Part shown: positions 36,461-54,557 of the stretch, in pieces
Numbering within the stretch: position 1 is the first letter of the stretch
Layout: the number at the start of each line of letters is the position of its first letter
Source: Chloroflexota bacterium
GTDB taxonomy: Bacteria > Chloroflexota > Anaerolineae > Anaerolineales > UBA4823
Length of the DNA: 64,000 bases
Direction of reading: 5' to 3'
Assembly (NCBI GenBank): GCA_029265355.1
Contig: JAJUJL010000003.1
Location: forward strand, 62,001-126,000
Notes under the pieces: model-generated
The model's database searches: none
What the model saw: the letters and a program-made list of their open reading frames with translations, nothing else
What the model was told of the DNA's origin: nothing
Translations under genes and position numbers: made by a program

Positions 36461-36494
36461 AGGGCTGCCGAATGATTTAAGGCAGCCCTCTTTG
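36461..36494 (+). terminator. Rho-independent terminator after the HhH gene
   Basis: AGGGCTGCC and GGCAGCCCT form a perfect 9-base-pair stem around an 11-base loop, followed by CTTTG. It starts 21 bases after the stop codon. Confidence 0.75.
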
Positions 36495-36577: not shown

Positions 36578-37801
36578 ATGGGTAAAAAGTCTCTTGGCAA
36601 GGGCAAAATATTGGGGAAATACAAAATCCTTGAACCAATGGACCCATTTCCGCGCCTGCAGGCGTACAAAGCGCGCGACCTGGAACAGCAGCGCGCAGTG
36701 TGCCTGCTCGCATTGGCGGATGCTGCGGCCCGGCGCCCAGACAGCCTGCAACAGATCAAGACGCATGTGAACAAGCTGTGCAGCCTGGAGTATGTGGGGA
36801 TCGCAAAAGTCTACGAAGCATTCGAGAGCAATGAACAATACTTTGTGGCGATGGAGTTCATTCCCGGCGCGAACCTGGAAACTATCCTGCAAAGAATGCA
36901 GCAAAACCAGGCCCGTCCGCGATACGATGAGGCGTTGGGAATATTCCGTCATGTGCTCACCAGCCTGGTCCGATTGGAGCAGTGGGGACTATCCAGCCGC
37001 AGCTTCGATCCTTGTTGGATCCATTTTCGCCCCGAACCGTGTTTGGAAATGCCTTTCTGCAGCGTACTGACCGATCCTGGGGTTGGTTATTTGCCGATTG
37101 CACGCCCGCGAAAGAGCGTCAAAGCGACTGCTCCAGCATTGAACGGCGATCCGGAGCGCCAGATCGAAAAACTTGGTGTATTATTATATAGGCTGGTTAC
37201 CGGTAAGCCTGCGCCTGATGCCTCGAGCGATCCTGTTCGCCTGGTGCAAGAGTCTCCTGGCGTACCTGAGAGGGTAATCCGTATGGTGGAGGGATTGCTT
37301 GGACAGGATCAAAAGCGGCGTTTCGAGCAATTGAGCGAGGTAGCGGAAGCGTTGGCTGCGGTGGATAGCCAGATCACGCAAATTTCTTCCAGCAGTGGGG
37401 TGCTGGGCAGGCCGGAGAGCCTGATGGGATATTACCTGGACAGCCTGGTGAATGAACGGAGCGGTAATACGGTGGCGCCTGCAGACAGCAACGAAACCGA
37501 TAAAATTCAAATCAACGGACCTGGCATTGGTAGACAGGTCGTTCCAATCAATCGAGATGGGATAACCATTGGGCGTGTGGCTGGCAATGATATTGTGCTC
37601 AATGATTTGTTGGTTTCCCGGTTGCATGCGCGCATTGATTTTGAGGATGGATCGTACCGTGTGATCGATCTGAACAGCACGAATGGCACCTTCCTGGGCG
37701 ACCAGAAGCTGTTGCCAGGCGTCCCTGAAACCTGGCGACCTGGCACTCCGCTACGCTTAGGCGACACCGTGCTGCGGCTGCTGCTGAGCAAAGATAGTTG
37801 A
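36578..37801 (+). CDS. Pseudokinase fused to an FHA domain
   Basis: A 407-residue protein. Residues 14-285 follow the Ser/Thr kinase fold (KYKILEPMDPFPRLQAYKARD, VAMEFIPGANLETIL, LGVLLYRLVTGKPAP). The catalytic residues are lost: the ATP-binding Lys is absent in RAVCLLAL (39-46), HRDxKPxN is SRSFDPCW (140-147), and DFG is DPG (166-168). Residues 318-405 are a canonical FHA domain with GRVAGNDI, VSRLHA and NSTNGTF, so phosphothreonine binding is expected. It probably acts as a scaffold or reader of phosphoproteins. No ribosome site precedes the ATG; a -10-like TAAAAT lies six bases before it. Confidence 0.85.
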   Translation: MGKKSLGKGKILGKYKILEPMDPFPRLQAYKARDLEQQRAVCLLALADAAARRPDSLQQIKTHVNKLCSLEYVGIAKVYEAFESNEQYFVAMEFIPGANLETILQRMQQNQARPRYDEALGIFRHVLTSLVRLEQWGLSSRSFDPCWIHFRPEPCLEMPFCSVLTDPGVGYLPIARPRKSVKATAPALNGDPERQIEKLGVLLYRLVTGKPAPDASSDPVRLVQESPGVPERVIRMVEGLLGQDQKRRFEQLSEVAEALAAVDSQITQISSSSGVLGRPESLMGYYLDSLVNERSGNTVAPADSNETDKIQINGPGIGRQVVPINRDGITIGRVAGNDIVLNDLLVSRLHARIDFEDGSYRVIDLNSTNGTFLGDQKLLPGVPETWRPGTPLRLGDTVLRLLLSKDS

Positions 37802-37808
37802 TACCCGT

Positions 37809-38798
37809 TTAGCTTGCAGGCTGCCGGAAAAATTCCAGGGCGCGGCGAATGGCTGGCAGGTATTCATCCTGGTAGTCGTGTCCGGCAGAGGGGACAATTT
37901 CCAGGCGCGTTTCGAAGCCGCTATCCCTCAGAATGGCAATCAATTGACCAATTTCCTGGTGCGGAATGGTTTCATCAGCCTGCCCGAGGATGAAAGCCAG
38001 GCGCAAGGGAACTGCCTGGGCGTCTGCGAGCTGCAAGTAGTCCTGGATCAGCTCCTGCCAGGCTGCCGGATCGTTGGTCAACGGTCCGCCGGGGCCAATC
38101 AACAGCACGCCGCGAGCGGGCAAGGCGCGCTTGAGAGCCAACCACAGGGCAGCCTCGGCGCCCATCGAATGGCCTGCCAGCAAAATGAGCTCGGGGTCCA
38201 GGGCGTAGTTTTGCTGCAAGGCGTGGAAGTGGCGCTCGATCTGTTGCCGGGTGATCTCCAGGTCGTCCCAAATGTAGGCGCCTCGCCACATGGCCTGGAC
38301 CGATTCGGGAGCGGCGACCAACCAACCTTCGAAAGCGGCGGGTTGCCAGAAAGGCAAAGAAGCCTGGGCGCGGGCCGCGTTGGCGTGCAGGCCGATCAGC
38401 AAAGGACAAGGGGCGTCGCGCTGCGTGCAGGCAGAGCGTGGTCGTATGGTGATCAACGGGAAGGCTTCCTGGCGGGAAGCGGCTTCCTGTTGCTGATTGC
38501 GCTCGACGAGGGCTTCGAACTCCGGTAGGCCCTGCAGCGGTTGGAGCGAGGGGCTCTTGCGCAGCAGTGTTTCGCCATACCAAAAACCTCCACCCAGGGC
38601 GGACTCGAGGACGCTCAAGGCGCGCGAGATGTCGCCCAGGCGAGCTGCCATGCACATCTGCCAGTAAGCAAACAGGTGCGTGTGCTCAGGAAATTCGCCA
38701 GCATGGCGATCGGCGAGCGCCAGGGCGCCGGCAAAATCGCCGGCCTGGTAGCAAGCCTGGATAGATGCTTGTATGCTTTCGAAGGTGGGTGTGCTCAC
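37809..38798 (-). CDS. Alpha/beta-hydrolase with N-terminal helical repeat region
   Basis: A 329-residue serine hydrolase. Residues 1-110 are TPR-like helices (YQAGDFAGALALADRHAGEF). The hydrolase part has the nucleophile elbow GHSMGAEA, an acid in LGQADETIP and a base His in SAGHDYQDE, as in phospholipase/carboxylesterase relatives. The start is GTG at 38798, six bases after a TATAAT, so it may be leaderless. It ends seven bases from the convergent FHA gene. Substrate unknown. Confidence 0.82.
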   Translation of the reverse strand: MSTPTFESIQASIQACYQAGDFAGALALADRHAGEFPEHTHLFAYWQMCMAARLGDISRALSVLESALGGGFWYGETLLRKSPSLQPLQGLPEFEALVERNQQQEAASRQEAFPLITIRPRSACTQRDAPCPLLIGLHANAARAQASLPFWQPAAFEGWLVAAPESVQAMWRGAYIWDDLEITRQQIERHFHALQQNYALDPELILLAGHSMGAEAALWLALKRALPARGVLLIGPGGPLTNDPAAWQELIQDYLQLADAQAVPLRLAFILGQADETIPHQEIGQLIAILRDSGFETRLEIVPSAGHDYQDEYLPAIRRALEFFRQPAS

Positions 38799-51559: not shown

Positions 51560-52969
51560 ATGGAATTACATCTCTACGATACCTATACGCGAAGCTTGAG
51601 GAAGTTCGAACCCCTGGAGGCAGGTAAGGTCGGCATGTACACCTGCGGACCGACCGTCTATGATTACGCACACCTGGGAAACCTGCGCACTTATGTGTTC
51701 GAGGATATTTTGCGCCGTGTGTTGGAATTCAACGGCTACCAGGTGGAGCATGTTATGAACATCACCGATGTTGGACATCTGGTGTCGGACGCGGACGAGG
51801 GCGAAGATAAAATGGAGAAGGGCTCGCGCCGCACCGGTTTGAGCGCTTACCAGATTGCCGAGAAGTACACGGCTGCCTTCCAGGAGGATATCACCCGGTT
51901 GAACATCCTTTTCCCCACGGTGTGGTGCAAGGCGACCGAACACATCCAGGAGCAGATCGACTTCATCGCCTGCATCGAAGCCAGGGGATACACCTACCGC
52001 ACTTCGGATGGCATCTATTTCGACACCTCCAAGCTGCCGAATTACGGCTACCTGGCGCGCCTGGATATCGAAGGTCTGCAGGCTGGAGCGCGCATCGAAA
52101 TGGGTGAGAAGCGCAACCCCACCGATTTCGCCCTGTGGAAGTTCAGCCCAGCGGGTCAAAAAAGGCAGATGGAATGGGACAGCCCGTGGGGAGTCGGTTT
52201 CCCCGGCTGGCATATCGAATGCTCGGCGATGTCTGCGCGCTACCTGGGCAGTTTTTTCGATATCCATTGCGGTGGAGAAGATCATATTTCGGTGCATCAC
52301 ACCAACGAGATTGCGCAAACCGAAGCCTGCTACGGCACCCGCCTGGCGAACTTTTGGCTGCATGGTTATTTTCTGCAAGTGGACGCCGAGCGCATGTCCA
52401 AGTCATCGGGAGAGTTCTTGCGCCTGCAGAGTGTGCTGGATCGAGGGATCGATCCCCTGGCTTACCGCTTGTTTTGCTTGAATGCCCACTATCGCAGCAA
52501 GCTCAATTTTTCCTGGGAGGGCTTAGAGAGCGCAGCCACCTCGCTGCAGCGTTTGCGCACGGCTTACTACGAATGGGGGCAGTCAAGCGCAGGGCGGCAG
52601 GAGCGAATCGACGAGCAGATGCTGGGACGTTTTCGCGACCAGGTGAACGACGATCTGAATATGCCACGGGCGCTGGCGGTGGTGTGGGAGCTGGTGCGCA
52701 GCGATCTACCGCCAGAGATCAAAAAAGGCACCCTGTCCACGATGGATCGGGTGCTTGGTTTGCGGCTTGCTGAATGGCGCCCAGAGGAAGAGACCGCGCC
52801 GCTGGAGATTCTGACGCTGCTGGAAGCGCGGCAGCAGGCGCGCAAGGAGAAGCGCTGGGCGGACGCCGACGCGCTGCGCCAGCAGATCCAGGAAGCTGGC
52901 TATGAGATCGAAGATACACCACAAGGCTCGCGGGTGAAAAGAAAGCGCACCACGGTAGGTGAAGGATGA
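51560..52969 (+). CDS. cysS: Cysteinyl-tRNA synthetase
   Basis: Charges tRNA-Cys. The 469 residues contain the HIGH-type motif HLGN in [18 protein letters not shown], with the zinc Cys of TCGPT, and [15 protein letters not shown] with further zinc ligands. The KMSKS motif appears as [11 protein letters not shown]. The C-terminal region (about 390-469) is the anticodon-recognising part. It overlaps the first CooC-like gene by four bases (ATGA), so coupled translation is likely. Confidence 0.97.
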
Positions 52970-53754
52970 AAATTGCAATCACTGGCAAGGGCGGCGTTGG
53001 CAAAACCACGCTCACGGCGTTGTTGGCGCAGGTTTGGGCAGATCGCAAGCGGGAGGTTTTGGCGGTGGACGCTGATCCCTCCCCGTGCCTGGCGGGAGCG
53101 CTGGGCTTTCCAAGCGAGCTGCGCGCCGGGTTGCGCCCGGTGGCTGAGATGGATGACCTGATCTATGAGCGCACCGGAGCGCGCCCAGGACAGGTGGGTG
53201 GCTTTTTCACGATCAATCCCCGGGTGGATGACATACCAGAGCGGTTTTCGGCGCTGCACCGCGGTGTGCGCCTGTTGGAGATGGGCGCGGTGGACACTGG
53301 CGGCTCGGGTTGCATTTGTCCAGAAAGCGCCATGTTGAAAACGCTGTTCACCCACCTCCTGTTTCGCAAGGATGATGTGCTTTTGTTGGATATGTACGCT
53401 GGCGTGGAGCACCTGGGGCGGGCGACAGTGGATTTCGTCGACCTGATGCTGGTGGTGGTTGAACCGACGCGCCGCAGCCTGGGCACCGCGGCGCAGATCC
53501 GCAAGCTGGCGAATGATATCGGCCTGCAACGGCTATTGTTGGTGGGCAACAAAGTGCGCAACCCGGATGAAGCGGATTTCCTGGCGAAGGAATCCCCCGG
53601 TATGCCGGTGTTGGGCATCCTCCCGCACGATCCCCTGGTGCAGGAGGCAGATCGGCTGGGTGTGGCGGTGTACGACTATGTGCCATCCCTGCGCAAGGCT
53701 GCGGAGGGCATGGCCGATTTACTGGAGCAGGAGACTGCACTCATCGAACGGTAG
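52966..53754 (+). CDS. CooC-like nickel-insertion ATPase, copy 1
   Basis: A 262-residue MinD/SIMIBI ATPase like CooC, which helps put nickel into carbon monoxide dehydrogenase. The deviant Walker A is [10 protein letters not shown] (7-16). A CxC metal motif, Cys116 and Cys118 in GSGCICPES, matches the dimer metal site of characterised Coo[15 protein letters not shown] and [14 protein letters not shown] are the other family strands. The ATG overlaps cysS by four bases. No CODH catalytic gene is in the window. Confidence 0.88.
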
Positions 53755-53765
53755 GAGCGAGAAGC

Positions 53766-54557
53766 ATGACAACGACGATTGCACTGGCAGGCAAAGGCGG
53801 CGTGGGCAAGACGACCATCGCGGCGATGGTGATCAAGTACCTGGCGCAGAAAAAAAACGGCGCGGTCCTGGCTATTGACGCTGACCCGAGCAGCAACTTG
53901 AACATGGTGCTGGGGTTGGAGCTGGAATGGACGGTGGGCGATATTCGAGAAGATATGCTGGCTCAGGTGAAGGAGTCGTTGGTGACCGGTGGAGCGGCGA
54001 TGGGCACCATGCCCGGAGGGGTCTCCAAGCGCGATTACCTGGATTACCACGTGCGCCATTCGCTCTCAGAGGGCGATGAATTCGACCTGATCGCCATGGG
54101 GCGCTCGGAAGGCCCCGGATGTTACTGCGCGGTGAACCACAACTTGCGCGAAGTGGTGGACGCGATTTCACGCAACTATCGCTACGTGGTGATTGACAAC
54201 GAAGCCGGTATGGAGCACTTGAGCCGACGAACGACGCGCGACGTGCAGCACTTGCTGATCGTGAGCGATTCCACGCAGCGCGGTATCAGCGCGGCGGCGC
54301 GCATCGCTGGTTTTCGCAAGGAGCTGGATATTCGCATCGAAAACGCCTACCTGGTGATCAACCGGGCGCCAGGCGGCGAGCTGCCGCAGGCCTTGCAGGA
54401 ATACATCCGCCAAAATATGGATATTCCGCTGCTGGGAGTCGTTCCGGCGGACGATGAACTGGCAGCCTTCGAGTTCAGCGGTAGACCGCTGGTGGAGCTG
54501 GGGGATGAGTCGCCGGTGTACCAGGCTGTTCGGACGATGATGGGGAAGATGCTGTAG
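53766..54557 (+). CDS. CooC-like nickel-insertion ATPase, copy 2
   Basis: A 263-residue paralogue of the preceding gene, 11 bases downstream. The Walker A is [10 protein letters not shown] (9-18), and the CxC pair is Cys119 and Cys121 in GPGCYCAVNH. AIDADPSSNLNMVLGLE and VVIDNEAGMEHLSRRT are family strands. The two copies are clearly diverged, so they may act as a heterodimer or on two different nickel enzymes (for example CODH and acetyl-CoA synthase). This is an inference; neither target is visible here. Confidence 0.9.
   Translation: MTTTIALAGKGGVGKTTIAAMVIKYLAQKKNGAVLAIDADPSSNLNMVLGLELEWTVGDIREDMLAQVKESLVTGGAAMGTMPGGVSKRDYLDYHVRHSLSEGDEFDLIAMGRSEGPGCYCAVNHNLREVVDAISRNYRYVVIDNEAGMEHLSRRTTRDVQHLLIVSDSTQRGISAAARIAGFRKELDIRIENAYLVINRAPGGELPQALQEYIRQNMDIPLLGVVPADDELAAFEFSGRPLVELGDESPVYQAVRTMMGKML

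Follow-up and report, generated by a model that had tools for sequence, protein, structure and literature searches.

In the window, the 64,000-nucleotide stretch of Chloroflexota DNA that was analysed as a whole, a complete open reading frame of 407 codons was found on the plus strand, with exactly the boundaries given to it in a first-pass annotation made from the sequence alone. The gene is present in a single copy in its genome and codes for a degraded kinase domain followed by a linker and an FHA domain (Table 1). The codon score in its own frame was 0.17 for the kinase part and 0.24 for the FHA part, with negative values in the other frames. The GC3 of the gene was 0.60 and that of its neighbours 0.66-0.78.

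The stop codon lies five residues past the FHA domain, and the downstream gene, oriented convergently on the opposite strand, ends at 37809, 8 bases away. The search for the remnant of a C-terminal tail in frame 3' of the stop revealed no room for it before this convergent gene. Upstream lies a gene encoding a helix-hairpin-helix protein, and after it a perfect inverted repeat of 9 bp was read from the sequence (agggctgcc at 36461 and ggcagccct at 36481). Because of the convergent gene on one side and the hairpin on the other, the pseudokinase-FHA gene probably forms its own transcription unit, with no continuation into a lost tail. A promoter and terminator scan gave a single promoter-like match, on the minus strand and at chance level, and no terminator. 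No active kinase gene adjoins the pseudokinase-FHA gene in the window, where it stands solitary after the hairpin, and no membrane segment was recognised in the 407-residue chain.

The helix-hairpin-helix gene, which has relatives in 14 of the 38 genomes of the family, was considered as a conserved partner and rejected, as in the other genomes where both kinds of gene were found these relatives were located on contigs other than those carrying kinase-FHA genes and no synteny was observed. Elsewhere in the window (52966-54557), two adjacent genes code for P-loop ATPases whose starts resemble maturation factors of the CooC/MinD type.

Table 1. Features of the pseudokinase-FHA gene, with positions in the window
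Feature	Residues	Position	Strand	Basis or remark
Complete ORF, pseudokinase-linker-FHA	407 aa	36578..37801	+	ATG-to-stop reading; single copy in its genome
Pseudokinase domain	9-262	36602..37363	+	HMM of active-relative kinase domains; AlphaFold model; PDB fold matches
Degraded glycine loop DPFPRLQA (active relatives GEGGMGAV)	22-29	36641..36664	+	Alignment to active relatives
Beta3 VCLL for VAIK; ATP-binding Lys replaced by Leu44	41-44	36698..36709	+	Alignment to active relatives
AlphaC Glu replaced by His	63	36764..36766	+	Alignment to active relatives
Catalytic loop SRSFDPCW for HRDxKPxN	140-147	36995..37018	+	Alignment to active relatives
DPG for DLG/DFG, then largely deleted activation loop	166-168	37073..37081	+	Alignment; low model pLDDT at 173-189
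Linker	263-307	37364..37498	+	Family signature S-L-x-x-Y-x-x-S-L, here ESLMGYYLDSL
FHA domain	308-402	37499..37783	+	Pfam 1e-16 (residues 329-395); 16/16 conserved columns
FHA motif GR	332-333	37571-37576	+	
FHA motif SRLH	347-350	37616-37627	+	
FHA motif NSTNG	366-370	37673-37687	+	

Fold and catalytic residues of the kinase half

The Pfam kinase model matched the protein below threshold (0.0029) and over residues 30-111 only. An HMM constructed from the kinase domains of 17 intact active relatives, with the window protein excluded, matched residues 9-258 with E=4.5e-25. When residues 1-266 alone were compared with the PDB (phmmer), kinases or kinase-fold entries accounted for 60 of the 60 matches listed, the best at 3.2e-05. 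A weak match of the N-lobe (residues 13-104) to PDB entries 3oun, 3uqc and 3otv was also noticed (0.004), and of these 3uqc is the mycobacterial pseudokinase MviN (PMC12599244).

The structure prediction proposed as a check by the first-pass annotation returned a kinase fold. The AlphaFold model obtained with an alignment reached a pLDDT of mostly 70-97 in residues 1-170 and 190-265 and below 50 at 173-189, and it matched PknA, MKK4 and other kinases in the PDB with Z of about 21-22 over 235-250 residues. The 25 rows of that alignment included 23 kinase domains and one FHA, so the model supports the fold in a way that depends on homology with the kinases supplied. Prediction from the single sequence gave a pLDDT of 37 and was discarded. 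Homology to Hanks-type Ser/Thr kinases thus extends across both lobes, in agreement with the predicted fold, and the assignment of residues 9-262 to a divergent protein kinase fold, made from alignment and modelling, is considered secure. The boundaries previously placed at 14-285 have to be shifted to about 9-262, residues 263-307 being the linker.

The loss of the ATP-binding Lys and of the HRD Asp, both pointed out in the first-pass annotation, was borne out by the alignment (L44 and S142). The annotation understated the damage, as the glycine loop, the alphaC Glu, the HRD His, the catalytic-loop Lys (Asp144) and Asn (Trp147), most of the activation loop including the APE motif and the alphaF Asp (Gln195) are gone as well. 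The third loss it named, that of the DFG Phe, was read correctly as DPG and was rejected as evidence of a dead kinase, since the nearest active relatives read DLG at this place. The only catalytic-motif residues left are Asp166 and Gly168, at the place of DFG. Of the five residues by which an active kinase was judged, D166 alone was kept, the others reading L44, H63, S142 and W147; with the Lys and the HRD Asp of the catalytic triad lost and the DFG Asp kept, the domain falls among the pseudokinases.

The window protein kept 23 of the 70 kinase columns with a conservation of 90% or more across 28 active relatives, including Gly97, Gly137, Pro145, Asp166, Gly168, Gly200 and Arg248. Its kinase part was 25-28% identical to the 12 core active relatives, which share 65-73% with one another. 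These alignments support the view that the kinase half is catalytically dead.

The FHA domain and the linker

The FHA domain presents a different picture. None of the 16 family-conserved columns, selected at the same threshold and comprising GR, S-R-x-H and N-G, has lost its residue, and the intact GR, SRLHA and NSTNG motifs reported earlier were confirmed on the profile match, which places the domain among the FHA domains by its motif residues. Its identity to the 12 core active relatives was 51%, next to 53% between the active proteins themselves. As the FHA identity is near the family level and that of the kinase far below it, the FHA half appears to be under ordinary family constraint and the kinase half not. 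Judging from the motifs, the domain is probably able to read phosphothreonine. In the structural model this half was of low confidence, with one homologue supplied.

The FHA domain resembles those of GarA, OdhI and FhaB (NF049868 FhaB 9.7e-18; OdhI and GarA about 1e-6 in the PDB). Unlike the window protein, these proteins have no kinase domain, and the score of 64.7 bits for the FhaB family stayed far below its cut-off of 125. An FHA-only search of viral contigs gave no match, and a scan of named genomes gave one match only, an Acidobacteria FHA.

The Thr found in the linker of nearly all active relatives is replaced by Gly in the window protein. This Thr (S-L-x-T) was present in 19 of the 20 active members inspected versus two of the seven pseudokinases, counts which include related sequences. 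Such a distribution suggests that the linker Thr may be an autophosphorylation mark required only in active members.

Relatives of the protein and known systems

The best matches in related genomes were long proteins, mostly of about 800-1,400 residues, with the same kinase-linker-FHA start. Most of them carry the full set of catalytic motifs, and their C-termini contain Ig-like folds, TSP3, PD40 or DUF11 (Pfam), with a hydrophobic segment between, recognised by eye. Members of the same class (L022:7124-10045, L023:931-4065 and L035) share with the window protein the order of domains, 32-37% identity over most of the protein, the linker signature and about 51% identity in the FHA. In contrast to it, they keep all catalytic motifs and extend for 500-800 further residues, whereas the chain of the window protein stops at the FHA and its kinase is dead. 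In the kinase-FHA family as defined here, the window protein therefore has the kinase, the S-L-x-x-Y linker and the FHA, but not the Ig-like/membrane C-terminal part.

Pseudokinase versions recur in related genomes, with the catalytic loop reading HGALTP (genomes G013 and G028), HGDLYP (G025), ARGxKPxD (G059 and G485) or QRSVNP (G023, where the FHA was missed by Pfam); the degraded motifs ARGxKPxD and SLG are common to G059 and G485, which belong to two genera of one family. Paralogues of this kind (L022:10145-13897, L025:2-2890, L028:2106-3113 and L163:2989-6570) resemble the window protein in that the catalytic motifs are lost and the FHA is kept. They differ from it in keeping the C-terminal tail where the contig reaches (the L028 paralogue being cut off at the FHA) and in forming, in two or three cases, a tandem pair with an active copy. 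In the window protein the degradation has gone much further, the tail is missing and the gene has no such companion. The search for the same fusion, suggested earlier, was therefore positive for the tailed form, but the tail-less form was absent from the samples of the family, order, class and phylum, the closest protein showing 37% identity, so the window protein is the sole tail-less member found. In the tree it was placed on a branch of 3.6 changes per site. Its grouping with the tandem pseudokinases was not upheld, as the tree was undecided on this point (end branch of 3.6, two label changes).

Other arrangements were observed around members of the family. In G059, the pseudokinase-FHA gene (L112:9142-11235) is broken by a frameshift in the N-lobe; in G485, the relative with the same neighbours and the same degraded motifs (L163:2989-6570) is unbroken. 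In G001 (L021:10397-13471) and G457 (L165:2033-5015), active kinase-FHA genes adjoin a Baseplate_J gene and a gene for an FHA protein, which in G001 is fused to a phage tail domain (Tail_P2_I, Pfam 1e-16). These loci look like a contractile injection or tail-like cluster, which may be under phospho-control.

The first-pass annotation called bacterial pseudokinases rare. This view is not tenable, given the further members described above and a 2025 review in which five of the 42 families of bacterial Ser/Thr kinases consist wholly of pseudokinases (PMC12599244). Seven pseudokinase families (ActPs1-3, GLW, CP1, DYD and DLHK) are described there, including these five, and the loss of all three motifs is called 'relatively common in prokaryotes' (PMC12599244). 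In a word search of PMC12599244, FHA occurred once, for FhaA with MviN, and Chloroflexi or Chloroflexota did not occur; no pseudokinase-FHA fusion was found in the titles and abstracts listed by a literature search.

The MviN (ActPs3)/FhaA pair of Mycobacterium tuberculosis is among the known systems closest to the window protein: the MviN pseudokinase works non-catalytically with FhaA, which is recruited to phosphorylated MviN (PMC12599244). As in the window protein, a dead bacterial kinase domain is combined with an FHA. In the mycobacterial case, however, the FHA is located on a separate protein binding the phosphorylated tail of a transmembrane pseudokinase, whereas here both are parts of one chain. 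What is new in the window protein is the FHA in cis with a dead kinase and the existence of active relatives of the same architecture, pseudokinases themselves being established in bacteria.

Possible roles of the protein

Among the readings considered, the best supported is that the protein is a soluble, catalytically dead phospho-reader or adaptor derived from a kinase-FHA receptor, and we put its chances at about even. The presumed direction of change is from an active ancestor to the dead form. The ancestor would have joined an active kinase and an FHA domain to a long C-terminal region with Ig-like, membrane and probably extracellular sections; it would have lost this region together with nearly all phosphotransfer residues and retained the folded kinase body and a functional-looking FHA. 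The FHA would bind phosphothreonine, on a substrate or on an autophosphorylated kinase, made by the active Ser/Thr kinases of the cell. The pseudokinase body could provide a protein-binding surface, e.g., one for dimerising with an active kinase in the manner of kinases; the adaptor would in this way couple a phosphorylation event to a partner. Such a partner, and any effect on an active kinase, are presumed here. The same genome encodes active Ser/Thr kinases, PP2C phosphatases and several other FHA proteins, so phosphothreonine for the FHA is likely available. Points in favour of the adaptor are also the kinase homology in sequence and fold, the unequal constraint on the two halves, the purifying selection on sibling pseudokinases, their position next to active twins in G013 and G028 and the MviN/FhaA precedent; points against it are the lack of a tail-less ortholog in the samples searched, the solitary position of the gene, its lower GC3 and its undecided place among the pseudokinases in the tree. 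The scaffold gathering phosphorylated partners envisaged by the first-pass annotation is a plausible hypothesis; a monomer with one FHA would hold a single phospho-partner at a time. Elsewhere in this genome (L029:6494-10040, contig C63), a gene for an active Ser/Thr kinase is followed by one for a protein with two FHA domains and, judged by eye, an apparent lipase or acyltransferase-like C-terminus.

A simpler reading than the adaptor gives a function to the FHA alone: the kinase half would be a decaying relic and the protein an FHA switch like GarA, OdhI or FhaB. We regard it as possible, if doubtful. The kinase half diverged far faster than the FHA, family members which lack the kinase and start at the FHA, followed by the tail, exist in G021 (L026:943-3060) and G009 (L027:7181-9790), and no ortholog showing constraint is at hand. 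Against it, the kinase half runs for 262 codons with no stop or frameshift despite the very long branch, shows codon preference in frame and has a confidently predicted kinase fold. Free decay would hardly leave the frame open and the codon preference in place in both halves; these features, and the structural kinase residues that are retained, are indirect signs of selection.

Purifying selection on the sibling pseudokinases is relaxed but clear. For the pair from G013 and G028, dN/dS (Nei-Gojobori) was 0.10 in the pseudokinase domain, 0.02 in the kinase domain of the active partner and 0.07 in the FHA of the pseudokinase protein; for the pair from G485 and G059, it was 0.23 in the C-lobe part of the kinase and 0.37 in the FHA. 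These figures concern the sibling pairs, as no close ortholog of the window gene was found in the samples of the order, class and phylum and selection on the gene itself is therefore not measurable.

It is also conceivable, but quite unlikely, that the pseudokinase serves as a regulatory subunit dedicated to an active kinase, whether as allosteric activator, as competitor or as decoy, and that its FHA docks on the linker of this partner once the linker is autophosphorylated. The tandem pairs make this reading attractive. In G013 and G028, the pseudokinase-FHA gene is located directly downstream of an active kinase-FHA gene, as would be predicted for a dead copy that regulates or binds the live one. 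In two species of one genus, an active kinase-FHA gene followed at once by a pseudokinase-FHA gene was read at L022:7124-13897 and L025:2-5908. The same tandem, split by a contig break, is probably present in G025, as contig C302 ends in an active kinase and C311 opens in an FHA tail followed by the pseudokinase. The uneven distribution of the linker Thr between active members and pseudokinases points the same way. However, no active partner is encoded near the window gene, and a full-length active kinase-FHA homologue of the family was not found in the window genome.

Retention of an unusual nucleotide-dependent activity, e.g., through migrated residues as in WNK or SelO-like enzymes, is very improbable: Asp166 and Gly168 survive at the place of DFG, but the glycine loop and the activation loop are missing, the Lys and Glu, the His and Asp of HRD and both the Lys and the Asn of the catalytic loop have gone, and bulky Trp147 occupies the place of the metal-binding Asn. 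The chance that a sequencing or assembly artefact makes an active gene look degraded is negligible, for although the genome is a draft of 64 contigs, the gene lies inside a contig of 329 kb and its motifs were lost through dispersed substitutions and not through frameshifts, the frame being intact and the codon preference that of coding DNA.

The first-pass annotation had no sight of the active, tailed kinase-FHA relatives, nor of the active twins beside pseudokinases in other genomes. The window protein is a much reduced relative of a functional kinase family and not a wholly new type of protein. A broader proposal, offered tentatively and rather unlikely as it stands, is that the class uses paired active and dead kinase-FHA proteins, like some kinase/pseudokinase pairs of eukaryotes. 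The window protein would then be a soluble, freed regulator that reads the phosphothreonine of active kinases through its FHA and docks through its dead kinase body. The window gene is an orphan, hence its own role is uncertain. The protein nevertheless offers a simple natural system for asking what purpose a kinase fold may serve after catalysis has been lost, and the dead copies located beside live ones in its relatives raise the question of whether bacteria evolved kinase/pseudokinase pairs as eukaryotes did.
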